The position numbers and the translations under genes are program-made. A DNA stretch of 56,385 nt from Ideonella aquatica (GTDB lineage Bacteria > Pseudomonadota > Gammaproteobacteria > Burkholderiales > Burkholderiaceae_C): assembly GCF_018069755.1 (NCBI RefSeq), contig NZ_JAGQDE010000025.1:1-56385 (forward strand), in the 5' to 3' direction. This document shows positions 14,324-38,546 of this stretch, piece by piece (within the stretch, counting starts at the first letter, position 1; the number at the start of each line of letters is the position of its first letter). The notes beneath the pieces are model-generated. The model was not told the origin of the DNA. It did not search any database and was given only the letters and a program-made list of their open reading frames with translations.

Positions 14324-14355
14324 TCGCTTCAGTCCGTCGGCACCCTCGCCGATAT

Positions 14356-14376
14356 CCGGTCAGACCCACTGACCGG
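14356..14376 (+). repeat. Inverted repeat abutting the second protease start codon
   Basis: CCGGTCA-gacccac-TGACCGG gives a perfect 7-base stem ending on the base before the ATG at 14377. It could hide the start codon in mRNA or be a protein-binding operator; both are inference. No Shine-Dalgarno sequence is visible apart from it. Confidence 0.5.
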
Positions 14377-16233
14377 ATGACCGGCATGCCTGACCTTGTT
14401 CCACGCCTGCGCCCCTGGCTGGGCGCCGTCGCCTGCGGCCTGCCGCTGCTGGCTGCAGCGGCCCCCACGGCGGCCCCTGAGGCCTTCATCCTGCGCCTGC
14501 GCGACGCGCCGGCACACACCGAGCTGAGTCCGCCGCAGGACCGCCGACAGGCCAGCGTGGCTACGCGCAGCCAGGCGCTGCGCCTGGCCCAACGACGCCA
14601 ATGGCAGGCGGTGCTCAGCGGCAGCGGCCTGGACGCCGAAACCGGCTGGCGCCTGGAGCCGGTGGGCCGGGCCTCGTGGCGGCTGGTGCCGGGCCACCGC
14701 CTGAGCGCCACCGAGGCGCGCCGCTGGCAGGCCGCGCTGGCCGCCCAGCCGGGCCTGGCCTGGGTGGAGCCCGACCGCCGCGAAAGCCGCCTGCAGGCCC
14801 TGCCCGACGACCCGCTGTACAGCGAGCAGTGGTGGCTGCACCCGGCCGGCGGCGCCAATGCCAACGCGGCGTCCGAGCGCCGCCGCGGTGCCCCGGGTTT
14901 CCAGACCGCCTGGGCCCGCCTGGGCGCCGGCAGCGGCCCGGTGGTGGCGGTGCTCGACACCGGCCTGACGCCGCACCCCGACATCGATGCCAGCCGCGTG
15001 CTGCCCGGCTTTGACATGGTCAGCGACTGGGACAGCAGCGTCGCCCGTGGCCTGGCCGCCGACGGCAACGGCCGCGACAGCGACCCCACCGACCCCGGCG
15101 ACGCCGTCACCGACAGCGAGCGCAGCGCCGACCCCACCCGCTACGCCGGCTGCAGCAGCAGCGCCAGCAGCTGGCACGGCACCGCGGTGGCAGGCCTGCT
15201 GGCGGGCCACAGCCGCGACGCCAGCGGCGGTGCCGGCGCCTACGACGGGCTGCGCCTGCTGCCGGTGCGGGTCTCGGGCCAGTGCGGCGCCAGCCTGCGC
15301 GACATCGTCGACGGCCTGCGCTGGTCCGCCGGCCTGACGGTGTGTCAGCGCTGGGCCGATGCCCAGGATCCGGGCTCGGGTTGCGCTGAGTGGGCGCCCA
15401 CCAACCCCTACCCCGCCAAGGTGGTCAACCTGAGCTTTGGCGCCCAGGTGGACTGCGGCTCGGAGTACCAGGCGGCGATCGACGAGCTGTGGGCGCGCGG
15501 CGTGCTGGTGGTGGCCCCGGCCGGCAATGCCCACGGCGCCCCGGCCCGGCCGGCCAATTGCCGCCATGTGGTGGGCGTGGCCGCGCTCAACCGCGACGGC
15601 TTCAAGGCCAGCTACTCCAACTTCGGCAGCGCGCTGGCGATAGCCACCGTGGGCGGCGACGACAACCAGGGCCTGTGGGGCGCGCTGCTGGCCGATCCCG
15701 GCCTGCTGGGCCCGACCAACGAGGGCCTGGACCGCGCCGCCAACCCCGGCTGGGGCACGCACTACGGCAGCAGCTTTGCGGCGCCGCTGGTCTCGGCGAC
15801 GCTGGCGATGATGCTGGCGGCCGACCCGCAGCTCAGCGCCGCGCAGCTGGTGGACGGCCTGGGCCGCAGCGCGCGGCCGCATGTGCGCTCCACGCTGATC
15901 GGTGCCTGCAGTGTCGACAACCCGGGGCGCTGCCTGTGCAGCACCGCCAACTGCGGCGCCGGCATCCTGGACGCCGACCAGGCCCTGGCCTGGGCCCAGG
16001 CGCAGGCCGCCGGCAGCTCCTGGCAGGCGCCGAACTGGCCCACCGAATGGCTGGACACCGACGAGCTGCGCCAGGCCGTGGCGCTGGGCCCCGACCGCGA
16101 GCCCACCGCCACCACCGGCAACGGCAGCGGCAGCGGCTCGGGCAGCCCGGCGGGCGGGGGTGGCGGCGGCAGCACGCCGTGGTCGGCGCTGGGCTTGCTG
16201 GGCGCGGCGCTGGCGCTGCGGCGGCGCCGCTGA
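14377..16233 (+). CDS. Second secreted S8 serine protease with GlyGly-CTERM-like tail
   Basis: A 618-residue subtilase homologous to its upstream neighbour. It has a signal peptide (LPLLAAAAP), a propeptide, and catalytic residues Asp194 (VLDTGL), His267 (SWHGTAVAG) and Ser466 in GSSFAAP, where the more common GTS is GSS. It lacks the PKD-like repeats: the catalytic domain leads through a short Gly/Ser linker to a GGGGGGSTPW hinge, hydrophobic helix and RRRR end. Paired cysteines near the C-terminus (CSVDNPGRC, CSTANCGAG) match those of the first protease. Probably a diverged tandem duplication. Confidence 0.88.
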   Translation: MTGMPDLVPRLRPWLGAVACGLPLLAAAAPTAAPEAFILRLRDAPAHTELSPPQDRRQASVATRSQALRLAQRRQWQAVLSGSGLDAETGWRLEPVGRASWRLVPGHRLSATEARRWQAALAAQPGLAWVEPDRRESRLQALPDDPLYSEQWWLHPAGGANANAASERRRGAPGFQTAWARLGAGSGPVVAVLDTGLTPHPDIDASRVLPGFDMVSDWDSSVARGLAADGNGRDSDPTDPGDAVTDSERSADPTRYAGCSSSASSWHGTAVAGLLAGHSRDASGGAGAYDGLRLLPVRVSGQCGASLRDIVDGLRWSAGLTVCQRWADAQDPGSGCAEWAPTNPYPAKVVNLSFGAQVDCGSEYQAAIDELWARGVLVVAPAGNAHGAPARPANCRHVVGVAALNRDGFKASYSNFGSALAIATVGGDDNQGLWGALLADPGLLGPTNEGLDRAANPGWGTHYGSSFAAPLVSATLAMMLAADPQLSAAQLVDGLGRSARPHVRSTLIGACSVDNPGRCLCSTANCGAGILDADQALAWAQAQAAGSSWQAPNWPTEWLDTDELRQAVALGPDREPTATTGNGSGSGSGSPAGGGGGGSTPWSALGLLGAALALRRRR

Positions 16234-26824: not shown

Positions 26825-27268
26825 CTAAGTCGTGGGTGTCACTGCCGCGGGCAGATACACCGCACAGAACTCCGGCGGCATGCGGCGCGCCTGGCCGCTG
26901 CTGATCTCGATGCAGACCAGTTGCCAGCGGCCGCGCAACACGGTGGCGCCGTCGCGCAGGCGGCGCAGCTGGAAGCGGCGCTCCATGCGCAGGCGGCCGT
27001 CGCCGGGCAGCAGCCAGGTGGCCAGCTCCAGCGCGTCGCCCAGCTGGGTGGGCAGCAGGTAGTCGTACTCGCCGCGGTGGATGGCCATGGCGCGGTCCAG
27101 GCGGCGGTAGTCGGCGATCGACAGGCCCAGGGCCTCGGAGTGGGCCCAGCCGGCCTGCTCGCACCAGCGCAGGTAGACGGCGTTGTTGGTGTGGTCCAGG
27201 CCGTCGATGTCGCCGGGTTCAGGCGCCACGCGCAGCAGGAAGGGGCGGGGCAGGTCCCAGTCGTCCAT
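26825..27268 (-). CDS. YbgC/4HBT-type acyl-CoA thioesterase
   Basis: A 147-residue hotdog-fold thioesterase. The family motif with catalytic Asp is visible: GDIDGLDHTNNAVYLRWCEQAGW, then the usual EYDYLLPTQLGDALELATWL segment. It would hydrolyse an acyl-CoA or aryl-CoA; substrate unknown. ATG at 27268, five bases after aruG, makes it the last gene of the arginine operon. It could act on succinyl-CoA-linked metabolism or simply be a passenger; the sequence does not decide. Confidence 0.87.
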   Translation of the reverse strand: MDDWDLPRPFLLRVAPEPGDIDGLDHTNNAVYLRWCEQAGWAHSEALGLSIADYRRLDRAMAIHRGEYDYLLPTQLGDALELATWLLPGDGRLRMERRFQLRRLRDGATVLRGRWQLVCIEISSGQARRMPPEFCAVYLPAAVTPTT

Positions 27269-27273
27269 GCTCT

Positions 27274-28032
27274 TCAGCGCCGGGCACACCAGCTGTCCAG
27301 GTGGGTTTCGAAGACCGGGCCGCCGTCGACGATGTCGATGTGGTGGCTGTAGCGGAAGCCCGCGTCGGCCAGCGTGTCCATCCACAGTCGGGCCGAGGGC
27401 GCGGCCTGGGCCATGGCCGCCTGCGCGGCGGGGCTCAGGAAGGACGCGTAGACCACCTGGCGCGGCATCAGCGCGGCCAGCTGGGCGCGGCCATCCCCGC
27501 CCAGGCGCTGCAGCACCGCGTCGGGGTCGCCCGCGTGGAAATGCCGACCCAGGCCCTGCCAGAACGGCGAGCGGCCCTGGTCGTCGCGCAGGCCAGGCAG
27601 CTCGGCGATCACCATGCCGCCCTGCAGCGCGCGAGTGGCCTGCAGGTGCTCGCGCGCGGCCATCAGCAAGGCGCGCCAGGCCAAGGCCTGGGCTGCGGCG
27701 TCCAGCGCGGGGTGGTGCGCACCGGCGGCGAGTTCGCTGGCTCCGGTGTGGTCATTGCCCAGCAGCAGCGTGTGCTGGCGGTGGAACAACTGCAGCTCGG
27801 GCGCCGCATGCACCACGCAGCCCACGTGGTACCAGTGGCGCGGCCGCCGCAGGCCGATCGGGCCACGCACGCGCAGGCAGGCGGACGGACCGCAGGCGCC
27901 GTCAGCGCCCTCAGCCAACAACCAGGCGGCGGCAGTGCCGGGTTCGGGCAGCGTGGTGTCGGCCGAAGCGGGCAGCCAGGCGCTCAGCACCGGCACATCG
28001 GCAGCCTGCACGGGGCGAACAGTCCAGCGCAT
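27274..28032 (-). CDS. aruG: Arginine/ornithine N-succinyltransferase, AruG-like, short at the C-terminus
   Basis: A 252-residue member of the AstA/AruFG family, which moves succinyl from succinyl-CoA to the alpha-amino group of arginine. It keeps the core: TLLLGNDHTGASEL (as LSNDHTGSSEL in AstA), SPFWQGLGRHF, ALMPRQVVYASFL and HHIDIVDGGPVFETHLDSW. It then stops, while AstA, AruF and AruG are about 340 residues, so the last 80 or so residues are missing. Part of the N-terminal half also looks eroded (SCLRVRGPIGLRR in place of VFVLED). It may serve as a partner subunit of AruF. Two bases follow the aruF stop. Confidence 0.82.
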   Translation of the reverse strand: MRWTVRPVQAADVPVLSAWLPASADTTLPEPGTAAAWLLAEGADGACGPSACLRVRGPIGLRRPRHWYHVGCVVHAAPELQLFHRQHTLLLGNDHTGASELAAGAHHPALDAAAQALAWRALLMAAREHLQATRALQGGMVIAELPGLRDDQGRSPFWQGLGRHFHAGDPDAVLQRLGGDGRAQLAALMPRQVVYASFLSPAAQAAMAQAAPSARLWMDTLADAGFRYSHHIDIVDGGPVFETHLDSWCARR

Positions 28033-28034
28033 CG

Positions 28035-29087
28035 TCAGACTCCGTCGGGGCCATCCAGCGCGGCCACGCACAGGCTGTCGCCCACGCTGAGACCCAGCAA
28101 GGCGGCCTCGTCGTCACGCAGTGCCACGGCCGGCGCCGTGGCGTCCAGTTCCAGCAGTGTGGCGCGCCAGTGCTGCAGGCGCCGGCCTGCGGCCAGGTGG
28201 GTGGCGTGGCCGCCGCGCGTGGCGCGCGGCGCGGGCGGCAGCACGCCCACGCTGCGCAGGCGGCGCGCGGTCTTGAGCATCGGCAGCCGGGCCTCCATCG
28301 TCGGGCCGCCATCGAAGACGTTGAGCCAGGTGTCGGCGTCAAAGCCCTCGTCCAGCAGGATCGAGAAGGGCCGCTCGGCCACCGGGTGCAGCTGGCCCAA
28401 CGCCCACTGCGTGGCCTCGTCCAGCAGCGGCACGTAGATCGGCGACTGCGGCAGCAGCTCGGCCAGGAAGGCGCGGCCCTGGCCGCTGGCCAGGCGCTCG
28501 GCGGCGGGGTAGTCCAGGTGAAAGAAGCGCCGGCCCACCGCATCCCAGAACGGGCAGGCGCCGGATTCGTCGGCCAGGCCGGGGTGCTCCGAGACGATGC
28601 GGTCGGTGAAGCGCTCGGGGAAGCTGGCGATGAACAGCAGGCGGCCGCGCGACAGCAACTGCGCACCGGGGCCGGCCTCATGGGCGGGGTCGATGTGGAA
28701 GCCGGTGAGCACGGTGGCACCGGTCAGGTCGTGGCACAGGTGCAGCGTGTGGATGCGGTTGCGCGCCCCCAGGGCCGGGCTGGCGTGCACGGTGAACTCG
28801 TTGCGGTAGCTGTAGAAGCGGTCGCCCGCCCCGGCGCGCGCAGCGATGCCCGCGGTGCCCACCAGCGCGCCGGCCTGCTGGCGGTCTTCCAGCACAAAGA
28901 GGTAGTGGGCGTCGGGCTCATCGCCGTCGGCAAAGCTGTGCTGAGAGCGGATGATGCGCTCGCGCAGCGCCTCGCGGTCAGCCGGCAAGGAACTGATGCC
29001 GATCGCGCTGGCCCCGGCCAGGCGCTCCAGACCGGTCAGGTCGGCCAGCGCGGCCGGCCGCAGCAGGTAGCGTGGGGCGTCGGCCAT
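28035..29087 (-). CDS. aruF: Arginine/ornithine N-succinyltransferase, AruF-like subunit
   Basis: A 350-residue full-length AstA-family protein, closest in motifs to the AruF (alpha) subunit: GISSLPADREAL, HYLFVLED, the HLCHDLTGATVLTGF block, CPFWDAVGRRFFHLDY, FLAELLPQSPIYVPLL and WLNVFDGGPTMEARL. It starts the AST route, arginine plus succinyl-CoA to N2-succinylarginine. Gene order argR-aruF-aruG resembles Pseudomonas, but aruC, aruD, aruB and aruE do not follow, so the rest of the pathway must be elsewhere. Separated from argR by two bases and from aruG by two. Confidence 0.93.
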   Translation of the reverse strand: MADAPRYLLRPAALADLTGLERLAGASAIGISSLPADREALRERIIRSQHSFADGDEPDAHYLFVLEDRQQAGALVGTAGIAARAGAGDRFYSYRNEFTVHASPALGARNRIHTLHLCHDLTGATVLTGFHIDPAHEAGPGAQLLSRGRLLFIASFPERFTDRIVSEHPGLADESGACPFWDAVGRRFFHLDYPAAERLASGQGRAFLAELLPQSPIYVPLLDEATQWALGQLHPVAERPFSILLDEGFDADTWLNVFDGGPTMEARLPMLKTARRLRSVGVLPPAPRATRGGHATHLAAGRRLQHWRATLLELDATAPAVALRDDEAALLGLSVGDSLCVAALDGPDGV

Positions 29088-29089
29088 GC

Positions 29090-30109
29090 TCAGACGCTGC
29101 GCTCGTCGCGGGCCGCGTTGCCGGGTGCGGGCTGGGTGGCCGCGGCGTCGCGCCACGTCTGGGCGCGCAGGCCGCGCTCGTCGCGCGGCGTGCGGCCGAA
29201 GTGGGCGCGGTAGGCGTTGGAAAAATGCGGCCCGCTGGCAAAGCCGCAGGCCAGGCCGATCTGCAGGATCGACTGCGGCGTCTGGCGCAGCAGCGCCTGC
29301 GCGCGCTCCAGCCGCAGGCCCAGGTACCAGCGTGAGGGCAGCGCATCCAGGTGCTGACGGAACAGGCGCTCCAGGTGCCGGCGCGACACGCCCACCAGGC
29401 GCGCCACTTCCTCGGTGGGCAGGGGCTCGGACAGGTTGGCCTCCATCAGCGCCAGGGCTTCGGCCAGCTTGGCCGAGCCGGCGCCGCCGCGGCCACTGCC
29501 GGGCACGCGCTGACGCTCGTCGGCGGCACGCGGGCCGGCCAGGCCGGCCTGGGCCGCCAGCTCCTGCGCCAGCCGGTCGCCGTGGTGGCGGCCCAGCCAG
29601 GCGATCATCAGGTCGCGCGCGGCCTCGCCACCGGCGCTGCTCAGGCGCTGGCGGTCGATCTCGAAGCGCTGCTGCGACAGCACCACGCCCGGGTGGCGCT
29701 CGGCCTGGGCCGCCAGGTGCGGCCAATGCAGCGTGGCGCGGTGGCCTTGCAGCAGGCCAGCCTCGGCCAGCCAGGCGGCCCCGGTGCCCACGCCGCCCAG
29801 GCAGGCGCCAGCGGCGGCCTGCTCGCGCAGCCACTGCAGCACCGCCGGGCCCAGCGGGTCATGCGCGGTCCACGGCAGGTCACTGACCACCACGGCCAGC
29901 TGCAAGGGCGGCGCTGCGCGCAGTTCGGTGCAGACCACCCAGGCGCCCGAGCCCGCGCGCACCGGCCGACCATCGATCGACAGCATCAGCGGCTCGGGAA
30001 TGCGCCCCGGGTGCAGCGGCGCGGCCTGCGCCAGCGGGTCGATCACGCCCGCCAGCGTGCCCAGCGAGAAGCCGGGCAGCAACAGGCAGCCGACGCGTGC
30101 GGAGCTCAT
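29090..30109 (-). CDS. argR: AraC-family arginine regulator with GATase1-like domain
   Basis: A 339-residue regulator of the GATase1-AraC type, as in Pseudomonas ArgR. The N-terminal part is a DJ-1/GATase1-like sensor (VGCLLLPGFSLGTLAGVIDPL, then CLGGVGTGAAWLAEAGLLQGHRATLHW). The C-terminal 100 residues hold two helix-turn-helix units: EEVARLVGVSRRHLERLFRQHL and SILQIGLACGFASGPHFSNAYRAHFGRTP. It lies between aotP and aruF, the place of argR in Pseudomonas. It is the obvious candidate to bind the direct repeat upstream of the cyanophycinase gene (35701-35742), activating with arginine. Confidence 0.9.
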   Translation of the reverse strand: MSSARVGCLLLPGFSLGTLAGVIDPLAQAAPLHPGRIPEPLMLSIDGRPVRAGSGAWVVCTELRAAPPLQLAVVVSDLPWTAHDPLGPAVLQWLREQAAAGACLGGVGTGAAWLAEAGLLQGHRATLHWPHLAAQAERHPGVVLSQQRFEIDRQRLSSAGGEAARDLMIAWLGRHHGDRLAQELAAQAGLAGPRAADERQRVPGSGRGGAGSAKLAEALALMEANLSEPLPTEEVARLVGVSRRHLERLFRQHLDALPSRWYLGLRLERAQALLRQTPQSILQIGLACGFASGPHFSNAYRAHFGRTPRDERGLRAQTWRDAAATQPAPGNAARDERSV

Positions 30110-30116
30110 CGTGTGC

Positions 30117-30890
30117 CTACTTCAGTCCACCACTGAGGAACTGCCGCAGCCGATCGCTGGCCGGGCGCACCAGCACCTCGCGCGGCGCGCCTTGCTCTTC
30201 GATCACACCCTGGTGCAGGAAGATCGCATGGCTGGCCACCTCGCGGGCGAACTCCATCTCGTGGGTGACCACCAGCATGGTGCGGCCCTCGGCGGCGAGT
30301 TCGCGCATCACCTTCAGCACCTCGCCCACCAGCTCGGGATCGAGGGCCGAGGTGGGCTCGTCGAACAGCATCACCTCGGGGTCGACCGCCAGCGCGCGGG
30401 CGATGGCCACGCGCTGCTGCTCACCCCCCGACAGCTGCGCCGGGTAGACCTGCAGGCGGTGCGACAGGCCCACCCGCGCCAGCAGTTGCTCGCCGCGCTC
30501 CACCGCCTGGGCGCGCGGCTGGCCCAGCACATGGATCGGCGCCTCGATGACGTTTTCCAGCACGGTGCGGTGCTGCCACAGGTTGAAGCTCTGGAAGACA
30601 AAGGCCAGGCGGGCGCGCCAGTGGCGCAGCTGGGCGTCGTCGGCCGCGGTCAGGCTGCCGTCGCGGTCGCGCTTGAGGGCCAGGGTCTCGTCGCCCAGGC
30701 GCAGCGTGCCCTCAAACGGCTGCTCCAGCAGGTTCAGGCAGCGCAGCAGCGTGCTCTTGCCCGAGCCGCTGGAGCCGATGATGGCCACCACGTCACCCGG
30801 TTGGGCGCTGAGCGAGACACCGCGCAGCACCTCGCGCTCGCCGAAGCGCTTGTGCAGGTTGTCGACGCTCAGTCCGAGATGCGCACTCAT
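30117..30890 (-). CDS. aotP: Arginine/ornithine ABC transporter ATPase
   Basis: A 257-residue polar-amino-acid ABC ATPase of the HisP/AotP type. All catalytic motifs are intact: Walker A IIGSSGSGKST, Q-loop FVFQSFNLW, signature LSGGEQQRVAIARAL, Walker B VMLFDEPTSALDPE and H-loop VTHEMEFA. It would power import through AotQ/AotM with AotJ. Seven bases lie between its stop and argR. The start at 30890 (MSAHLGLSV) fits family length. Confidence 0.96.
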   Translation of the reverse strand: MSAHLGLSVDNLHKRFGEREVLRGVSLSAQPGDVVAIIGSSGSGKSTLLRCLNLLEQPFEGTLRLGDETLALKRDRDGSLTAADDAQLRHWRARLAFVFQSFNLWQHRTVLENVIEAPIHVLGQPRAQAVERGEQLLARVGLSHRLQVYPAQLSGGEQQRVAIARALAVDPEVMLFDEPTSALDPELVGEVLKVMRELAAEGRTMLVVTHEMEFAREVASHAIFLHQGVIEEQGAPREVLVRPASDRLRQFLSGGLK

Positions 30891-30900
30891 GGCCGCACCC

Positions 30901-32019
30901 TCAGACCGACAGCAGCGAGCCGCTGCGCCGCGCATCGGTGCCGGCCACCTTGCCCAACGCCATGCCGGCCACCGCGAAGCGGCGGTTCTCGCGGGCGAAG
31001 AACAGGCCGGTGGTGCCGGCGCCCAGGGTGCTGACCTGGCCGCTGATCGGGTCAATCACGTCGACGATCGGCTCGCCCTCTTCCACCTCGGCGCCCGGGT
31101 CCTTCAGGAAGACCACCATGCCGCCGTGCGGCGCCACCAGCGGGATCGAGCCCGCCAGTGGCGTGGGCTGGCAGCGCAGCGGCGGGATCTCGGCGGCGTG
31201 GTCGTCGCGCACGATGCCGCGCGCCACCAGCAGGCGCAGGATGCCGGCGGCATCCTGGGCGGCCAGGTCGTGGCGCACATCGCCCTCGCCGCGCAGCTCG
31301 ATCGTGGCGGCCAGGCACGAGGGCGGCAGCGGCACGCCAGCGGGCAGGCGCTCGGCGATCTGCGGCCAGACCATCGAGCAGGCCTCATCAAAGGGGTCGC
31401 CGCCCGAGCGTTCGGCGAGCAGCGCCACGCGGGCGTCGATGCAGCGCACCAGCAACTCGGCCTGGTCCCAGGTGGCGGGCGTGGTGTAGATGTGCAGCAG
31501 GCCTTCGCCATCACTGTGCAGGTCCAGCACCAGCTCGGCGTCGATCGCCAGGCCCAGCAGCAGGCGGCGCAGGTCTTCCAGCGGCGTGGTGGCCTTGAGC
31601 TCGGCCGCCGCCTCACGCAGCGCGCTGCGCACCAGGGCCACGTTGGTGGCGGCGTCGGCCCCCAGGCGGTCTTGCACGCGGGCCAGCACAGGCTCGGTGA
31701 GATCGGCAAAGTGGCGGTTGAAGTTCTCGCCGCTGGTGAACTCGAAGCGGCCCTGGTAGCCGCGCAGGTGCCACTGGCGCAGGCCCAGCGGGTTGGCGGC
31801 GGGCACCAGGATCACCTCGCCCAGCAGCCGGCCTTCGGCCTCGGCGCTGGCCAACAGGCCGCGCAGGTGGTGGGCCACCAGCAGGCCCGGCACCTCGTCG
31901 GCGTGCAGCGCACCCTGGATGTAGGCCTTGCGGCCGCCCGGCCTGCCGTAGTGCAGGCTGACCAGTTCGTGGCGGGTGCCGGGGGTGGCGGCAAGCAGGG
32001 TGTGGTGCAGGGTTCTCAT
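30901..32019 (-). CDS. aotO: AotO-like M14 succinylglutamate desuccinylase/aspartoacylase family protein
   Basis: A 372-residue zinc amidohydrolase of the aspartoacylase/AstE clan. Zinc ligands are His39 and Glu42 (QGALHADE) and His168 (LVLDLHSDGE); TIELRGEGDV holds the likely catalytic Glu, and a C-terminal barrel (GGMVVFLKDPGAEVEEGEP) resembles biotinyl-like domains of this family. It occupies the aotO position of the Pseudomonas aot operon, between permease aotM and ATPase aotP. AotO is, as I recall, not needed for transport and has no assigned substrate. In this locus beta-Asp-Arg or a succinylated amino acid are candidates. Starts two bases after the aotM stop. Confidence 0.87.
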   Translation of the reverse strand: MRTLHHTLLAATPGTRHELVSLHYGRPGGRKAYIQGALHADEVPGLLVAHHLRGLLASAEAEGRLLGEVILVPAANPLGLRQWHLRGYQGRFEFTSGENFNRHFADLTEPVLARVQDRLGADAATNVALVRSALREAAAELKATTPLEDLRRLLLGLAIDAELVLDLHSDGEGLLHIYTTPATWDQAELLVRCIDARVALLAERSGGDPFDEACSMVWPQIAERLPAGVPLPPSCLAATIELRGEGDVRHDLAAQDAAGILRLLVARGIVRDDHAAEIPPLRCQPTPLAGSIPLVAPHGGMVVFLKDPGAEVEEGEPIVDVIDPISGQVSTLGAGTTGLFFARENRRFAVAGMALGKVAGTDARRSGSLLSV

Positions 32020-32021
32020 CG

Positions 32022-32711
32022 TCAGCGGGCGCCCATCGGGGTGAGCCAGCGCCGCTCGGCGGCGCGGAAGATCGTCACCAGCACCGCCGTGATCGCCAGG
32101 TAGAACACGGCGGCGGTGAGGAAGGCCTCGAAAGGCAGGTAGTGGACCGAGTTGACCTCGCGTGCGGCGCCAGTGAGGTCGGCGATGGTGACCACGCTGG
32201 CCAGCGAGGTGCCGTGCAGCATCAGCACCACCTCGTTGCCATAGGCCGGAAGCGCACGCCGGAAGGCCTGCGGCAGCACGATGCGACGCAGCGTCAGCCA
32301 GCGGCCCATGCCCAGCGCGCGGGCGGCCTCGACCTCGCCGGCGGGCACCGCCTTCATCGCGCCGTGCAGGATCTCGGTGGTGTAGGCGCAGGTGTTGATC
32401 GCAAACGCTGCGATGGCGCAGAACCAGGCCGAGGACAGCAGCGGCCAGGCCGCCGTCTGGCGCACCCATTCGAACTGCGCCAGGCCGTAGTACAGCAGGA
32501 ACAGCTGCACCAGCATCGGCGTGCCGCGGATCACATAGGTGTAGAGCCACACCGGCTTGCTCAGCCAGGGGTTGGACAGGCTGCGCAGCATGGCCAGCGG
32601 CAGCGCCGCCGCCAGGCCCAGCACCAGGGCCAGCAGCAGCAACTGCACCGTGACCACTGCGCCGTTGACGTACAGCGGCAGGCTGGCGGCGATGACGTCC
32701 CAGTCCAGCAT
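32022..32711 (-). CDS. aotM: Arginine/ornithine ABC transporter permease
   Basis: A 229-residue HisM/AotM-type inner-membrane permease with about five hydrophobic segments. The EAA loop that contacts the ATPase is clear: AARALGMGRWLTLRRIVLPQ. The ATG at 32711 overlaps the aotQ stop (TGATG); a GTG one codon earlier is possible. It pairs with AotQ to form the channel for basic amino acids delivered by AotJ. Confidence 0.95.
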   Translation of the reverse strand: MLDWDVIAASLPLYVNGAVVTVQLLLLALVLGLAAALPLAMLRSLSNPWLSKPVWLYTYVIRGTPMLVQLFLLYYGLAQFEWVRQTAAWPLLSSAWFCAIAAFAINTCAYTTEILHGAMKAVPAGEVEAARALGMGRWLTLRRIVLPQAFRRALPAYGNEVVLMLHGTSLASVVTIADLTGAAREVNSVHYLPFEAFLTAAVFYLAITAVLVTIFRAAERRWLTPMGAR

Positions 32712-33397
32712 CACAGGCTCACCCGTCGCACGCCGATCGCCAGCCGCCGCGACAGCCAGGCAAAACCCAGCTCCGACACGCTGGTGAACAGCAGGTACAG
32801 CCCGGCCACGGCCAGGTAAAAGACGAAGGGCTCGCGGGTGGCACCGGCTGCCTGGCCGGCACGGGCCATCATGTCGTGCAGGCCGATCACCGAGACGATC
32901 GAGGTGCTCTTGATCATCACCAGCCAGTTGTTCGACAGGCCCGGCAGCGCGTGGCGCAGCATTTGCGGCCCCACCACCCGGCGCAGCACCTGGCCGCGCG
33001 TCATGCCGAAGGCCAGCGCCGCCTCGCGCTGACCCGGCGGCACCGCCAGGAAGGCGCCGCGCAGCACCTCGGCCAGGTAGGCGCCGAAGACGAAACCGAT
33101 GGTCAGCACGCCGGCCACGAAGGGGTCGATGTCCACGTACTCCCAGCCCAGGCGTTCACCCAGCGCATTGACCGCCATCTGGCCGCCATAAAACACCAGC
33201 AACATCAGCACCAGATCGGGCACGCCACGGATCAGCGTGGTGTAGGCCAGGGCCAGGGCATTGAGCAGGCGCGAGCGCGCCAGGCTGGCCAGCGCCCCGG
33301 CCAGGCCCAGCACGAAGGCAATGCCCAGGCTGCCCAGGGCCACTGCCAGCGAGAGCAGCGCGCCCTGCAGCAGGCTGGCGCCGTAGCCGTACAGCAT
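32711..33397 (-). CDS. aotQ: Arginine/ornithine ABC transporter permease
   Basis: A 228-residue HisQ/AotQ-type permease. Hydrophobic segments surround TLIRGVPDLVLMLLVFYGGQ and the EAA loop REAALAFGMTRGQVLRRVVGPQ. Second gene after the cyanophycinase, six bases after aotJ, and its stop overlaps the aotM start. Partner of AotM in the same importer. Confidence 0.95.
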   Translation of the reverse strand: MLYGYGASLLQGALLSLAVALGSLGIAFVLGLAGALASLARSRLLNALALAYTTLIRGVPDLVLMLLVFYGGQMAVNALGERLGWEYVDIDPFVAGVLTIGFVFGAYLAEVLRGAFLAVPPGQREAALAFGMTRGQVLRRVVGPQMLRHALPGLSNNWLVMIKSTSIVSVIGLHDMMARAGQAAGATREPFVFYLAVAGLYLLFTSVSELGFAWLSRRLAIGVRRVSL

Positions 33398-33403
33398 CAG
33401 CGC

Positions 33404-34192
33404 TTACTTGCCGTAGATGTCGAAGTCGAAATACTTGTCCTGGATCTTCTTGTACGTGCCATTGGCGCGCACCGCGGCGATGGCCACGTTGAACTTCTCG
33501 AGCAGTGCGGTGTCGGCCTTGCGCATCGCGATGCCCGATCCGGAGCCAAAGATCTCGGGGTCATCCACCGGGTTGCCCAGCACCGCGAAGCCCTTGCCGG
33601 CAGGCTTCTTCAGGAAGCCCTCGGCGCCGGCCACCTGGTCGCACAGCGTGGCATCGAGCCGGCCGGCGGCCAGGTCCAGGAAGATGTCGTCTTGCTTGGC
33701 ATAGCGCACGATCTCGCTGCCGGTGTAGTACTTGGTGGCGTAGCGGTCGTGGCTGGTGGTGCGCTGCACGCCGATCTTCTTGCCCTTCATCGCGCTGGGC
33801 GAGATGTCGCGCGGCGCGCCCTTGCCGATGAAGGCCGGCGGCGTGTTGTAGTACTTGACGCTGAAATTGACCTGCTTCTGGCGCTCAGGGGTGATCGCCA
33901 TGGAGGCGATGATGGCGTCGAACTTGCGGGCCTGCAGCGACGGGATCATGCCGTCCCACTCCTGCTGCACCAGCACGCACTCGGCCTTCATCTCGGCGCA
34001 CAGGGCCAGGGCCATGTCGATGTCGAAGCCCTTGAGCTTGCCGTCGGTGCCCACTTCGGAGAAGGGCGGGTAGGCGCCTTCGACGCCGATGCGCACCTTC
34101 TTCCAGTCGGGGGACTGGGCGTGGGCGCCGAGGGTGGCGAGGGCGGTGCAGGCCAGCGCGGCCAGCGCGGCGATCAGGGGGCGGCGGATCAT
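33404..34192 (-). CDS. aotJ: Arginine/ornithine periplasmic binding protein
   Basis: A 262-residue type 2 periplasmic binding protein with signal peptide (MIRRPLIAALAALACTALATLGAHAQ). The family features are VRIGVEGAYPPFSEVGTDGKLKGFD, IASMAITPERQKQVNFS, and LLEKFNVAIAAVRANGTYKKIQDKYF at the end, as in HisJ/ArgT/AotJ. It would bind arginine or ornithine, and perhaps the beta-Asp-Arg dipeptide released by the cyanophycinase. Good ribosome site GGAGA before the ATG at 34192; 14 bases from the cyanophycinase stop, so it depends on the upstream promoter. Confidence 0.93.
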   Translation of the reverse strand: MIRRPLIAALAALACTALATLGAHAQSPDWKKVRIGVEGAYPPFSEVGTDGKLKGFDIDMALALCAEMKAECVLVQQEWDGMIPSLQARKFDAIIASMAITPERQKQVNFSVKYYNTPPAFIGKGAPRDISPSAMKGKKIGVQRTTSHDRYATKYYTGSEIVRYAKQDDIFLDLAAGRLDATLCDQVAGAEGFLKKPAGKGFAVLGNPVDDPEIFGSGSGIAMRKADTALLEKFNVAIAAVRANGTYKKIQDKYFDFDIYGK

Positions 34193-34206
34193 CAGGGGGT
34201 CTCCGT

Positions 34207-35547
34207 TCAACGCGAGGTCCAGGGGGTGAACATCGGGCGGGCGATGCGCACGGGGGCAATGTCCAGGTAGAGGCTGGAGACGGTGTACTCGTCCGCGCCC
34301 AGCTCGTCAGAGTACCAGCCGACGCTGTCCTTGCCCTTGTACAGGCGGAACGAGAAGCCCAGATCGGCCACGGCCTCGCTGGGCGCAGCCTTGGGATCAA
34401 AGGCCAGGCCGCGCGACTCGTTCTGCTTGCTGTCGATCAGTTCGGCCATCGCGTTGTAGATGGTGGAGTCGCCGAGCATGTCGGTGTAGTAGGCCTCGCG
34501 CAGGAACTCGGGCTTGAACTCGGGCGTGCCCGCCTGAAGGCGCGTGCCACGCAGCTTGCGCGCCGAGGGCATGATCTTGTGCAGCCCCAGATCGTAGCGG
34601 TCGCCTCGGTCCAGGTAGGTCAGGCGCGCGCCCTGCACGTTGAAGGCACCGATCTTGGCGTCGGTGCGGGCCTCGCGCAGGTCCACCAGCAGCGCGCCCT
34701 TGGCGCCGATCACCTCGACCATGTCGCCCTGCACCACCGTGGCGGAGTTTTCGTCGATGCCCAGGCCCAGCTTGTAGCCGCGCGCCATCATCAGCGGCAG
34801 CATGCGGCCAAAGCGTCCGCGCTTGAGGAAGTGCTGGTCGACGAACAGGTTGGGGCCGACAAAGCCCAGGCCGCGGTCGACCTCCTTGCCGTCGCGCAGC
34901 TGGCCCTTCATGACGTTGAGCACGCTCAGCGCGTCGCGGAACATCACGGTGCTCATCACCGCCGCGCCGGCCGAGGTGCCGGCGATCACACCGCCGCGCT
35001 GGTACACGCCCCAGATCGCCTGCAGCATCGGCGTGGGCCGGCCGCCCGGGCTGAAGGTGTCGATGATGCGCTCCTGCGCGCCACCGCTGAAGAAGATGCC
35101 CTGGGCGTTGTTGACCAGCTCCAGCAGCGACGGATCACGCACCGCGCGCTCCAGATCGACCCACTTGAGCTGCGGCGCCACCGGCACGATCTCGGCCGTG
35201 GCACCGCGCAGCTCGAGCAGGTCGGCCAGGCGGCGTGCGGTCTTGTCCGGCGTTTGCGAGGCGGTGCCGAAGATCACCCAGCGCGAGCCCTTGCCGCCGG
35301 ACAGCTCCACCAGGCGGCGCCAGACGTCCTCGTTGTCGCCCTTGAGGGCGCCGCCGATGACCACGGCATAGCCCTTGATGGGGCCGTCGGTGACAGCGCC
35401 CGGCGCCGGCACACCGGCGGTCAGCGGCGCGGAGGCGGCCGGCGCGGCTGGCGCCAGCTGGGCCAGCGCCCAGGCCGGCATCAGGGCCAGCAGCAACGCG
35501 GCCAGGTGGCTGCGAAGACGAAATGGATTCATGTGATGGAGGCTCAT
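34207..35547 (-). CDS. cphE: Exported cyanophycinase
   Basis: A 446-residue cyanophycinase (peptidase S51 clan) with signal peptide (SHLAALLLALMPAWALAQ), so exported, unlike intracellular CphB. It cleaves the polymer multi-L-arginyl-poly-L-aspartate into beta-Asp-Arg dipeptides. The nucleophile is Ser192 in AGTSAGAAVMS. Also seen are FFSGGAQERIID, VDQHFLKRGRFGRML and LGIDENSATVV, all family blocks. It is longer than CphB (about 270) because of the signal peptide and a C-terminal extension of about 120 residues. ATG at 35532 (MNPF) is an alternative start. It heads the aot-argR-aruFG operon behind an ArgR-type operator. The symbol follows the extracellular type and is tentative. Confidence 0.93.
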   Translation of the reverse strand: MSLHHMNPFRLRSHLAALLLALMPAWALAQLAPAAPAASAPLTAGVPAPGAVTDGPIKGYAVVIGGALKGDNEDVWRRLVELSGGKGSRWVIFGTASQTPDKTARRLADLLELRGATAEIVPVAPQLKWVDLERAVRDPSLLELVNNAQGIFFSGGAQERIIDTFSPGGRPTPMLQAIWGVYQRGGVIAGTSAGAAVMSTVMFRDALSVLNVMKGQLRDGKEVDRGLGFVGPNLFVDQHFLKRGRFGRMLPLMMARGYKLGLGIDENSATVVQGDMVEVIGAKGALLVDLREARTDAKIGAFNVQGARLTYLDRGDRYDLGLHKIMPSARKLRGTRLQAGTPEFKPEFLREAYYTDMLGDSTIYNAMAELIDSKQNESRGLAFDPKAAPSEAVADLGFSFRLYKGKDSVGWYSDELGADEYTVSSLYLDIAPVRIARPMFTPWTSR

Positions 35548-35663
35548 GTCCCTGCAATGGCAGCGGCCCGCCTGGGGTCGGCCGGCCCGATGCGCGATCT
35601 TGGCACCGCGGCACGCCGCCCGCCCTGCTGGGCGACCCGGGGCAGCGCAATCACAACAGAAGA

Positions 35664-35679
35664 TGTCGCTTCGACGCAA
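35664..35679 (+). promoter_or_regulatory. Single ArgR-type half-site facing the TonB receptor
   Basis: TGTCGC-N8-AA matches the Pseudomonas AraC-type ArgR half-site exactly on the plus strand. The 21-base neighbours on either side do not match well, so it stands alone. A second plus-strand TGTCGC at 35749-35754 has AA one base early. They could extend control to the divergent receptor gene. Confidence 0.4.
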
Positions 35680-35700
35680 ACCGCCGGCCGGAATGCGCCG

Positions 35701-35742
35701 CACTCTTGCCTTGAAGCGACCGCAAGTTGCGCCAGCGCGACC
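35701..35742 (-). promoter_or_regulatory. Tandem ArgR-type operator upstream of the cyanophycinase operon
   Basis: Read on the minus strand there are two head-to-tail half-sites: GGTCGC-N8-AA-N5 at 35742-35722 and GGTCGC-N8-AA-N5 at 35721-35701. The recalled site for Pseudomonas ArgR is a direct repeat of TGTCGC-N8-AA-N5 with a 21-base period; here the period is exactly 21 and only the first T is changed to G in both. The operator lies about 150 bases from the cyanophycinase start and points towards it. The operon itself encodes an ArgR homologue. Confidence 0.72.
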
Positions 35743-35822
35743 ACAATGTGTCGCTTCAGTGAACGCCTTGCCGGCGCTTTCTAGACTGCCGGCAGCCCTC
35801 CTCACCGCCCCCCGGAGCCCCC

Positions 35823-38546
35823 ATGACCTCTGCCGCACGCCGCCGCTCTGCTGTCCGAGCCTTTCCGTTCGCCCTGTCAGCCGGCGCCGTGGCGCTGAGC
35901 CTGGCCCTGCCCGCCCTGGCCCAGACCGCCGCGCCACAGCGCGTGGAGATCACCGGCTCGGCGATCAAGCGCCTCGATGGCGAGACCGCGCTGCCGGTGC
36001 AGGTGATCACGCGGGAGGAGATCGACAAGACGGGTGTGACCACCGCCGCCGAGCTGATCGCACGCGTGAGCGCCACCGCCGCCAACCTCACCGATGGCGG
36101 CAGCGTGGCCTACGGGGGCTTTCGCGACCAGATGGGCTTCAATGGTGCCAACCTGCGCGGCCTGGGTGTCTCGTCGACGCTGGTGCTGCTCAACGGCCGG
36201 CGCATGGCCAATTTCGCATCGCCGGGTGACGCCGCCGGGGTCGACCTCAACAGCATCCCGGCCGCGGCGATCGAGCGCGTTGAAGTGCTGCTCGATGGCG
36301 CGTCCTCACTGTACGGCTCGGACGCGATCGGCGGCGTGATCAATTTCATCACTCGCAAGGATTTCAACGGCCTGGAAGTGCGGGCCCAGGTGGGCAACAC
36401 CACCGAGGGCGGCGGCGGCAACAAGCGCAGTGTGACGCTGGCCGGCGGTCTGGGTGACCTGGGCCGTGACGGCTACAACCTGATGGCGGTGGCCGATCTG
36501 CAAAAGACCAGCCAGCTGAACGCGCTGAACCGCCGCTTCATCTCCGACCTGAAGATCCCCGAGCGGCTGCCGGACCTGCTGTCCAGCGCCACCTTTCCGG
36601 GCAACATCCGCCTGTCGGGCTACCAGCTCGAGACGCTGGCGGGCGAAGGCTTCTCGACCAACGGCAAGACGGTGATCGACTCGCGCACGATCAACCTGTC
36701 GGCGGCCTCCGGGTGCAACCCGCCGGCCAACCTGTACCTGCCAGACGGCATCGGCGGCGTCGATGGCTGCACCTTCGACTACATGCGCGACATCGAGCTC
36801 TACCCCGAGTCGACCAAGTCCAGCCTGTTCGCCCGCGGCGTCCTCGATCTGAGCGGCGGACACCTTGGCTTCGCCGAAGTGTCGGTGGCCCGCGCCCGTA
36901 CGCTCTACACCGGCACGCCTAACCGCATCGACGCGGACATCGACGTGAGCCGGATCTCGGCCTTCAAGGACAGCGCGCTGAACGCGCTGGACGCCGATGA
37001 CGAAGAGCGGCTGATCACGGTGCGCACGCGCCTGGTCGATGCCGGCCTGCGCACCAGCGAGCTGGTGTCCACCACCCAGCGGGTGGTGGCCGGCACCAAC
37101 GGCGCGCTGGCCGGCTGGGACTACGAGTGGGCGGTGAACCACAGCACCAGCACCGTCTCGGACCGGGACTACCAAGGCTATCTGAACGAGCAGATGATCC
37201 TCGACGGCTTCGCCGACGGCACGCTCAATCCGTTCGGCGCACAGTCGGCGGCGGGCCTGGCGATGTTCGAGGCGGCCCAGATCCGCGGCGAGGTGCGCCG
37301 CGCCACTGGCGCCATGACCAGCCTGGACCTCAAGGTCTCGCGTCCCCTGATGAGCCTGGCTGGCGGTGACCTGGCGGTGGCGATGGGTGGCGAGTTCCGC
37401 CGCGAGCGCCAGAACTACCACCAGTCGCAGGCGCTGGCTGACGACCTGATCCTGGGCGAAACCTCGCAAGGCCCGGGTGCCGACTTCGGCCAGGCGCGCA
37501 AGGTGGCGGCGGTGTTCGGCGAGGTCTCGGCCCCGCTGACCAAGCAGTTGGAGCTGACTGGTGCCATGCGCTACGAGAAATACCAGGTGTCGGGTGGCGC
37601 GCTGAGCCCGAAGCTGGGCCTGAAGTTTGTGCCGACCAGCGAACTGCTGCTGCGCGCCTCGGTGGGCAAAGGCTTCCGCGCACCCAGCATGTCCGACCTC
37701 TACCGTCCGGTGACCCAGGGCTCGGCCGCCACGCTGGTCGATCCGCTGTGCCTGCAGCTCGACCCCGAGGCCACGCCCACCGACTGCTCCGACATCTGGA
37801 CCACCTACAACTACAGCAACCCCAACCTCAAGCCCGAGAAGTCGCGTCAGTTCGCGCTGGGTGGCGTCTTCGAGCCCAGCCGGGGCGTCAGTGTCAGCCT
37901 GGACTACTGGAACGTCCAGAAGAGCGACCTGATCAGCACGTTGGGCGTGGACGTGATCCTGGGCAACCTCACCAAGTACGGCTCGCTGGTGCACCGCGAC
38001 GAGGACCAGTGGATCGACCACATCGACCTGGTCAAGCAAAATCGCGGCAAGCAGAAGATCTCGGGCATCGATCTGGGCGTGTCGATCAGCAAGATCCGCA
38101 GCGCGATCGGCGAGCTGGGCGTGTCGCTCAACGGCACGCTGACCTTGCAGTCCAAGCAGCAGACCGGTGATGGCGACCCCTACGTCAGCAACCTGGGCCG
38201 CTTCATCAATGACGGCGTGGTCCAGCGCTGGCGCCACACGCTGGCCTTCGACTGGGCGCAGGGCGTCTTCTCGGCCACGCTGTCGAACAACTACCTGTCG
38301 GGCTACCAGGACCAGGTCATCGTCGGCAAGGCGGATCGGCGCGTCTCGGCGTACTCGCTGTGGAACCTCTCCGGCGCCTGGGCCTTCAACGACGCCCTGA
38401 CCCTGCGCGCCGGCGTGCGCAATCTGCTCGACACCGCACCGCCGTTCTCGCAGCAGGCCTACTTCTTCATCTCGGGCTACGACCCGAGCTATACCGATCC
38501 GCGCGGTCGCTTCGTCTACCTGAGCGCGCAGTACAAGTTCAAGTGA
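35823..38546 (+). CDS. TonB-dependent outer-membrane receptor
   Basis: A 907-residue receptor. Signal peptide ends at LPALAQ; a TonB-box-like segment PQRVEITGSAIKR follows; the plug has VITREEIDKTG, NLRGLGVSSTLVLLNGRRM and VEVLLDGASSLYGSDAIGGVINFITRKDF. The barrel ends in FVYLSAQYKFK with a near-terminal aromatic residue. The size and plug type fit receptors for larger organic substrates more than siderophores, but this is not decisive. Divergent from the exported cyanophycinase across a region with ArgR-type sites, so the likely cargo is cyanophycin fragments or arginine dipeptides (inference). Confidence 0.93.
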   Translation: MTSAARRRSAVRAFPFALSAGAVALSLALPALAQTAAPQRVEITGSAIKRLDGETALPVQVITREEIDKTGVTTAAELIARVSATAANLTDGGSVAYGGFRDQMGFNGANLRGLGVSSTLVLLNGRRMANFASPGDAAGVDLNSIPAAAIERVEVLLDGASSLYGSDAIGGVINFITRKDFNGLEVRAQVGNTTEGGGGNKRSVTLAGGLGDLGRDGYNLMAVADLQKTSQLNALNRRFISDLKIPERLPDLLSSATFPGNIRLSGYQLETLAGEGFSTNGKTVIDSRTINLSAASGCNPPANLYLPDGIGGVDGCTFDYMRDIELYPESTKSSLFARGVLDLSGGHLGFAEVSVARARTLYTGTPNRIDADIDVSRISAFKDSALNALDADDEERLITVRTRLVDAGLRTSELVSTTQRVVAGTNGALAGWDYEWAVNHSTSTVSDRDYQGYLNEQMILDGFADGTLNPFGAQSAAGLAMFEAAQIRGEVRRATGAMTSLDLKVSRPLMSLAGGDLAVAMGGEFRRERQNYHQSQALADDLILGETSQGPGADFGQARKVAAVFGEVSAPLTKQLELTGAMRYEKYQVSGGALSPKLGLKFVPTSELLLRASVGKGFRAPSMSDLYRPVTQGSAATLVDPLCLQLDPEATPTDCSDIWTTYNYSNPNLKPEKSRQFALGGVFEPSRGVSVSLDYWNVQKSDLISTLGVDVILGNLTKYGSLVHRDEDQWIDHIDLVKQNRGKQKISGIDLGVSISKIRSAIGELGVSLNGTLTLQSKQQTGDGDPYVSNLGRFINDGVVQRWRHTLAFDWAQGVFSATLSNNYLSGYQDQVIVGKADRRVSAYSLWNLSGAWAFNDALTLRAGVRNLLDTAPPFSQQAYFFISGYDPSYTDPRGRFVYLSAQYKFK

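Follow-up and report, generated by a model that had tools for sequence, protein, structure and literature searches.

Does a gene cluster that sets a cyanophycinase beside an arginine transport operon and a TonB-dependent receptor form one system for the use of cyanophycin, the nitrogen-rich polymer that cyanobacteria and many other bacteria store? The cluster lies in the window analysed here, a stretch of 56,385 nucleotides of Ideonella aquatica (NZ_JAGQDE010000025.1) that forms contig C17 in an assembly of 58 contigs and 5.17 Mb. The original prediction had read a minus-strand run of ten closely spaced genes (exported cyanophycinase, aotJ, aotQ, aotM, aotO, aotP, argR, aruF, short aruG and a thioesterase) and a divergent receptor of 907 residues as a locus that depolymerises external cyanophycin, imports the products and catabolises their arginine under ArgR. 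Coordinates, strands and profile families confirm this layout: the coding spans of all named genes are free of stops, and the gaps within the run, from the gene coordinates, are all shorter than 20 bases. The cluster is real, conserved and mostly explained by known parts, and it is probably a cyanophycin utilisation locus under ArgR.

Linkage of receptor and cyanophycinase across genomes

We searched 180 family genomes (a single draw, repeated), keeping as carriers of a long, CphE-type cyanophycinase the 31 genomes with a match of at least 280 bits, out of 45 matching at E 1e-3, and as the receptor subfamily all matches of at least 654 bits. The receptor subfamily was present in 26 of the 31 CphE genomes and in 0/149 others; the predicted linkage of a cyanophycinase beside aot and argR genes with a TonB receptor is thus found across genomes. 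Of 36 receptor rows above the threshold, 29 had CphE within 10 kb, compared with 0/27 rows scoring 410-554 bits (rows below 410 bits were excluded). Seen from the 42 CphE rows, a receptor lay within 10 kb in 31, AotO in 26, both in 20 and either in 37; AotO itself was found in 31/31 CphE genomes and in 23 others. These counts refer to the best 5 candidates per genome for the receptor and the best 11 for AotO and AruF.

The cluster is a conserved unit. Loci with both receptor and cyanophycinase number 29, the window included; their flanking genes sort them into 12 groups, with 15 loci in the largest, so that shared position explains part, but not all, of the linkage. Given these 12 groups of surroundings, and since relatives share most of the gene set, it is not a chance association. 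The order cphE-aotJQMOP-argR-aruF-aruG with a divergent receptor also occurs in loci L053, L066, L100 and L130 (locus numbers are our own), and in L061 and L062 with the receptor at the opposite end; in L086 the receptor stands beside argR-aruFG-aotJQMOP and the cyanophycinase on a different contig. L100 belongs to Ideonella benzenivorans, a cultured relative. Oxalobacteraceae, one Niveibacterium and one metagenome-assembled genome (MAG) of the Steroidobacteraceae carry the partners in a different order. Among the best 80 named loci the receptor subfamily occurs in 32, with 33 genes; gene calling gave little or nothing on some loci (e.g., L129, L134, L135 and L139), so this survey undercounts.

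The cyanophycinase gene (34210..35547, minus strand; alternative start 35532) encodes a peptidase S51 protein of CphE type that scores 135 bits on TIGR02069, over the curated cut-off of 126.6, and 39.1 bits on PF03575 (cut-off 23.9); its PDB matches are the cyanophycinases 7uqv and 3en0. Among 16 aligned sequences the SAGA motif, the DQHF..R.R..R motif and the catalytic Glu are invariant, with S187, H234, E261, Q233, R238, R240 and R243 (counted from the start at 35532) kept in 16/16; neighbouring Gln and Arg residues have a role in cyanophycinase. A Sec-like signal peptide was read by eye at the N terminus. The complete catalytic motif and the signal-like leader agree with the predicted export, and the enzyme is predicted to cut cyanophycin to beta-Asp-Arg outside the cell. 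For an extracellular cyanophycinase, a triad of Ser (in GXSXG), His and Glu is proposed in the accessible text of PMC3235067. Among the matches listed, the closest named relatives by cyanophycinase are a Burkholderiales MAG (94%) and two Ideonella (66-67%). Paired adjacent cyanophycinase genes were seen in L047, L048, L103-L105, L109, L137, L146, L153, L154, L158 and L173. Planctomycete MAGs (L134-L136, L138, L140, L142, L144, L155 and L175) carry CphE-type cyanophycinases of 41-47% identity, and no receptor was called at those loci, where gene calling was poor.

The receptor (35823..38543, plus strand; 907 aa), divergent from the cyanophycinase, contains TonB-receptor plug (PF07715) and barrel (PF00593) domains. 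In a tree from a quick search without bootstrap, and leaving out the receptor of L101, 61 linked and 6 orphan receptors formed one branch against 20 paralogues (SH-aLRT 100). That split led us to reject the idea that any TonB receptor would do.

Receptors in L081-L085 have no cyanophycinase beside them, a RecQ-type helicase gene in the stretch and CphE elsewhere in their genomes; the same helicase gene lies near receptor and CphE in L049 and L050 (the helicase domain was scanned in L085 only), which suggests that the cyanophycinase was lost from L081-L085. A gene of ~203-218 aa, which we take to be YceH/DUF480, occurs on the receptor side in 12 loci (L042, L043, L047, L048, L056-L058, L060, L068 and L073-L075), and in 11 of them it neighbours a 260-aa gene, presumably a short-chain dehydrogenase; L073 has no called receptor. 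These common flanking genes point to one ancestral site.

ARG boxes in the divergent promoter region

The regulator gene (29093..30109, minus strand) encodes an ArgR-type protein with an AraC-type helix-turn-helix (HTH_18, PF12833; 79.2 against a cut-off of 33.6 bits) and a weak N-terminal GATase1-like domain (DJ-1_PfpI; 23.7 bits, under the cut-off of 26.6). Its top NCBIfam match, full-length, is GbdR, at 265.6 bits against a cut-off of 480. Two pieces of the protein share 46% and 54% identity with the regulator encoded close to astC-aruF-aruG-astD-astB in L190.

As far as the accessible text of PMC10963909 describes them, Pseudomonas ARG boxes follow TGTCGCN6GNAA and stand in tandem with a 5-bp separation, giving a 21-bp period; spacing in P. 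alloputida is mostly variable (PMC10963909). Between receptor and cyanophycinase we found a predicted tandem pair on the minus strand: box 1 at 35727..35742 (GGTCGCGCTGGCGCAA, one mismatch) lies 5 bases from box 2 at 35706..35721 (GGTCGCTTCAAGGCAA, one mismatch to TGTCGCN6GNAA), which reads toward the cyanophycinase. On the plus strand, in the opposite orientation, a box without mismatches lies at 35664..35679 (TGTCGCTTCGACGCAA) and a possible fourth at 35749..35764 (TGTCGCTTCAGTGAAC, one mismatch). The tandem ARG pattern occurs at one place only in this genome, between these two genes, and the boxes are consistent with the ArgR-type operators predicted for the cluster.

We then scanned 44 divergent receptor-cyanophycinase regions for TGTCGCN6GCAA with at most one mismatch. 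ARG boxes were present in 27/29 regions with argR and 3/15 without it, compared with at most 6 in dinucleotide shuffles of the 29; with near copies removed, the counts were 26/27 and 3/15. L052, with a partial argR, was counted as lacking the gene. The three regions with boxes and no called argR are L101 (at a contig end), L080 (argR elsewhere in the genome, at L086) and L042, which is unexplained; argR without a box was seen in two regions, L053 and L110, which are nearly identical.

Across the 180 genomes we found 11 exact tandem matches, 11/11 of them between receptor and cyanophycinase; allowing one mismatch added 16 tandem places, of which four belong to such clusters, one of the four lying shortly beyond aruG. 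In 3.15 Mb of locus DNA (167 stretches) the exact tandem pattern was found 19 times, all within these regions, and its reverse 0 times; the 19 sites fall in 18/29 regions with argR and 1/15 without. Inside the 44 regions the reversed tandem pattern gave no match even at two mismatches. Among aot operons without argR (L089-L098), a single one-mismatch box was seen in 2/12 regions upstream of aotJ. ArgR control of the cluster, as a prediction from sequence, is well supported.

Operon genes and the fate of arginine

Downstream of the cyanophycinase the minus strand encodes aotJ (33407..34192), a periplasmic substrate-binding protein of the Lys/Arg/Orn family (TIGR01096, 258.7 bits, cut-off 256.35), the ABC permeases aotQ (32714..33397) and aotM (32025..32711), and the ABC ATPase aotP (30120..30890; PF00005). 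The top NCBIfam matches of the last three, all under their cut-offs, are HisQ (260 bits, cut-off 319), HisM (238 bits, cut-off 306) and HisP.

The gene labelled aotO (30904..32019, minus strand) is present as predicted; its label did not hold, since the protein, with an AstE/AspA catalytic domain (PF24827), has as its nearest structures 8ein (phmmer 9.6e-78, 265 bits, residues 10-362) and 8eip (6.5e-77). The PDB titles of both entries read succinylglutamate desuccinylase, and we take them to be structures of CphZ. AotO keeps the HADE, DLH and catalytic Glu positions of 8ein and is likely a beta-Asp-Arg dipeptidase of CphZ type, so that the operon would hold a likely second degradation step. 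By family assignment, the combination that marks a cyanophycin utilization locus, a cyanophycinase, an isoaspartyl dipeptidase and a transporter, is clustered here. This second step and a cyanophycin synthetase encoded in the genome had both been missed.

The inner-membrane carrier varies among relatives. At six family loci (L055, L056, L060, L063, L065 and L068) a DcuC/YfcC-family carrier lies between aotO and argR and no aotJQMP genes were seen; its DcuC identity is by Pfam in L056, and YfcC is the name that we presume for the family. Eleven Oxalobacteraceae loci have a DcuC/YfcC-family carrier and AotO divergent from the receptor-cyanophycinase pair. Where receptor and cyanophycinase are paired without aot genes, in L042, L043, L047 and L048, a 548-aa sugar/MFS-family transporter is encoded a few kb away; its copies are 84-95% identical to that of L042, on which alone the family scan was made, and it may be a third inner-membrane carrier.

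The aruF gene (28038..29087, minus strand) encodes an alpha-type arginine N-succinyltransferase subunit that passes the AOST subfamily cut-off (326.5 against 284.35 bits) and matches PDB 1yle at 5.9e-87. The label "short aruG" is also right: this gene (27277..28032, minus strand) encodes a 252-aa AstA-family partner subunit without the C-terminal part, spanning only 74-262 of 335 AOST profile positions and 77-266 of 337 in PF04958. We counted 20 full AruF matches in the family, at 321 bits or more and in 17 genomes (15 rows below 95 bits, mostly the AruG partner, were excluded), with the receptor subfamily within 10 kb in 20/20 and CphE near 19. AruF keeps many positions conserved in proteins of the arginine succinyltransferase (AST) pathway. 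Glu at position 126 is absent from AruF (0/31), and likewise from the P. aeruginosa alpha chain 1yle, and present in AruG (26/26); Arg at AruF position 149 occurs in 31/31 AruF and 0/26 AruG. The short form holds for most AruG rows, with 4/26 related AruG exceeding 300 aa. This residue pattern points to a functional alpha-beta pair rather than to decay.

Does this pair begin arginine catabolism by succinylation, as had been predicted? AruF and AruG do belong to the AstA family, the first enzyme of the AST pathway. A whole-genome search with positive controls in E. coli and Caulobacter found AstB in 0/180 family genomes, this one included, and in this genome no astD scored over the cut-off. AruFG thus cannot feed the known AST pathway, and we rejected it as the start of that route. 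Across the class, an AruF/AstA match was found in 28/369 genomes searched (our own aside), and 28 loci were taken from 27 of them, one fragment being left out and one genome having two loci. In 27/28 of these, astB, astC or astD lies nearby, which counts in favour of the AST reading; astB itself is near in 17/28, and with no astB in the stretch in 11/28, an astB that is distant or divergent would be nothing exceptional outside the family. Yet the cluster proteins do not group with such enzymes: AruF (31 rows) and AruG (27 rows) form separate clades, each on its own side of a branch with support 100/99, apart from the AST-operon proteins. We consider it highly improbable that the released arginine is degraded by an AST pathway starting with AruFG.

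The final gene of the run (26828..27268, minus strand) is indeed a 4HBT thioesterase (PF13279); as a member of the conserved unit it was rejected, since no thioesterase match was labelled in the related loci surveyed. Elsewhere in the window (12113-16230), two neighbouring plus-strand genes encode long proteins with signal-like starts.

From family, motif and linkage, the cluster could work as follows. The exported cyanophycinase would cut cyanophycin to beta-Asp-Arg, and the divergent receptor would bring the products, or short pieces of the polymer, through the outer membrane. AotJ-Q-M-P would bring dipeptide and arginine over the inner membrane, a role that the DcuC/YfcC-family carrier may fill at other loci, and AotO, given its kinship, would split beta-Asp-Arg to aspartate and arginine. 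Arginine could then act via the ArgR-type regulator on the tandem ARG boxes, with both transcripts responding together (binding and sign being presumed), and AruFG would acylate arginine or a related product, not as entry to the standard AST pathway here.

Rival readings and known systems

Several observations weigh against a dedicated cyanophycin utilisation locus. The receptor is absent from 5/31 CphE genomes, 11/42 CphE rows lack such a receptor within 10 kb and 16/42 lack AotO; related genomes also share ancestry, and one linked group of surroundings holds 15/29 loci. At one mismatch or fewer, the reversed tandem pattern gave 84 genome-wide matches against 27 true ones (hand count), so the one-mismatch tandem rows are mostly noise. 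A dipeptide of the size of beta-Asp-Arg should cross ordinary porins, which leaves the need for a TonB receptor unexplained. The AlphaFold model of the receptor (pLDDT 76) is nearest to siderophore, B12 and other generic receptors, and these fold matches point to no substrate. They would suit another account, in which an ordinary arginine uptake and regulation operon is adjoined by chance by the cyanophycinase and an unrelated siderophore-type receptor; aotJQMOP does stand alone in loci such as L089-L094, and 42/68 family AotO rows are not within 10 kb of CphE. Chance neighbours should not, though, recur in 12 groups of surroundings, confine the receptor subfamily to genomes with CphE, or keep receptor and cyanophycinase paired where no aot genes lie in the stretch (L042, L045 and L047-L050), and we judge this account decidedly unlikely.

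The source of the polymer is a separate matter. The genome encodes cphA1 (976 bits) and, side by side with it on contig C22, a second copy at 653 bits, under the cut-off; it has one S51-family match in all. Across the family cphA1 occurs in 110/180 genomes, in 28/31 with CphE and 82/149 others, a distribution that would suit recycling of kin material as well as scavenging and that, with the single S51 match, would fit a locus for turnover of cyanophycin from the bacterium itself or from its lysed kin rather than of cyanobacterial material. The cyanophycinase, however, has a signal-like leader while cyanophycin is made in the cytoplasm, and three CphE genomes (G011, G140 and G143) have no cphA1 at the threshold used; turnover of own or kin material seems to us unlikely.

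Within the preferred reading, a cyanophycin utilisation locus under ArgR, we tentatively offer a more specific proposal, a serious possibility taken as one joint claim. A distinct group of TonB receptors would be dedicated to cyanophycin pieces and form, with the exported cyanophycinase, a core unit across Burkholderiales (with single loci in Rhodocyclaceae and Steroidobacteraceae); ArgR would have been recruited to its promoter; and the pair of AruF and short AruG, released from the AST pathway in a family where astB is not detectable, would catalyse a new acyl transfer to arginine or beta-Asp-Arg that is peculiar to the use of cyanophycin. If true, members of the Burkholderiales use cyanophycin as one arginine-sensed programme, a testable receptor family for a peptide-like polymer can be named, and two AstA-family partners that lack the enzyme following them in the AST pathway pose a concrete question in arginine metabolism.

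Pseudomonas offers a related gene order. P. aeruginosa has aotJQMOP-argR as in the cluster here, and Pseudomonas AotO is reportedly a CphZ, of the same family as AotO here. To our knowledge, and unlike here, no exported cyanophycinase or divergent receptor accompanies those Pseudomonas genes; Pseudomonas with aotJQMOP-argR also carries a complete AST gene set, unlike here. Its ArgR sites, as given in the accessible text of PMC10963909, share with our boxes the tandem TGTCGCN6GNAA, the 5-bp separation and the 21-bp period, whereas the predicted sites described here stand at the divergent promoter of receptor and cyanophycinase in Burkholderiales.

The cyanophycinases CphE of P. anguilliseptica and CphEal of P. 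alcaligenes resemble the enzyme here in having a Sec signal, a 1260-bp gene, and GXSXG, His and Glu; their activity is proven by experiment in the accessible part of the report (PMC3235067), whereas here it is inferred. The L21-Spi-D4 locus (Ben Hania et al.), where cyanophycinase genes cluster with a transporter and a gene for an isoaspartyl dipeptidase, is interpreted, in the portion available of PMC10206079, as scavenging of outside cyanophycin. Both loci bring cyanophycinase, dipeptidase and transporter together; that of L21-Spi-D4 has IadA, whereas the cluster here has a CphZ/AotO dipeptidase, an Aot ABC importer, AruFG and an ArgR-type regulator together with ARG boxes, in a genome that encodes cphA1 (PMC10206079). 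Citromicrobium sp. JLT1363 shares the placing of a TonB receptor beside a cyanophycinase gene, with cyanophycin as the proposed substrate (PMC3400609). That case is one genome, with no dipeptidase, regulator or operator in the context described in the accessible text, and its receptor is like ours by description only (PMC3400609).

In the open-licence literature we found no account of a cyanophycin locus that has ARG boxes or includes AruFG, a weak negative, as subscription papers were mostly outside its scope. Earlier publications do describe cyanophycin utilisation loci, dipeptidases of CphZ type and a receptor close to a cyanophycinase. Set beside these systems, most parts of the I. aquatica cluster are known, and the combination and some of its details look new.

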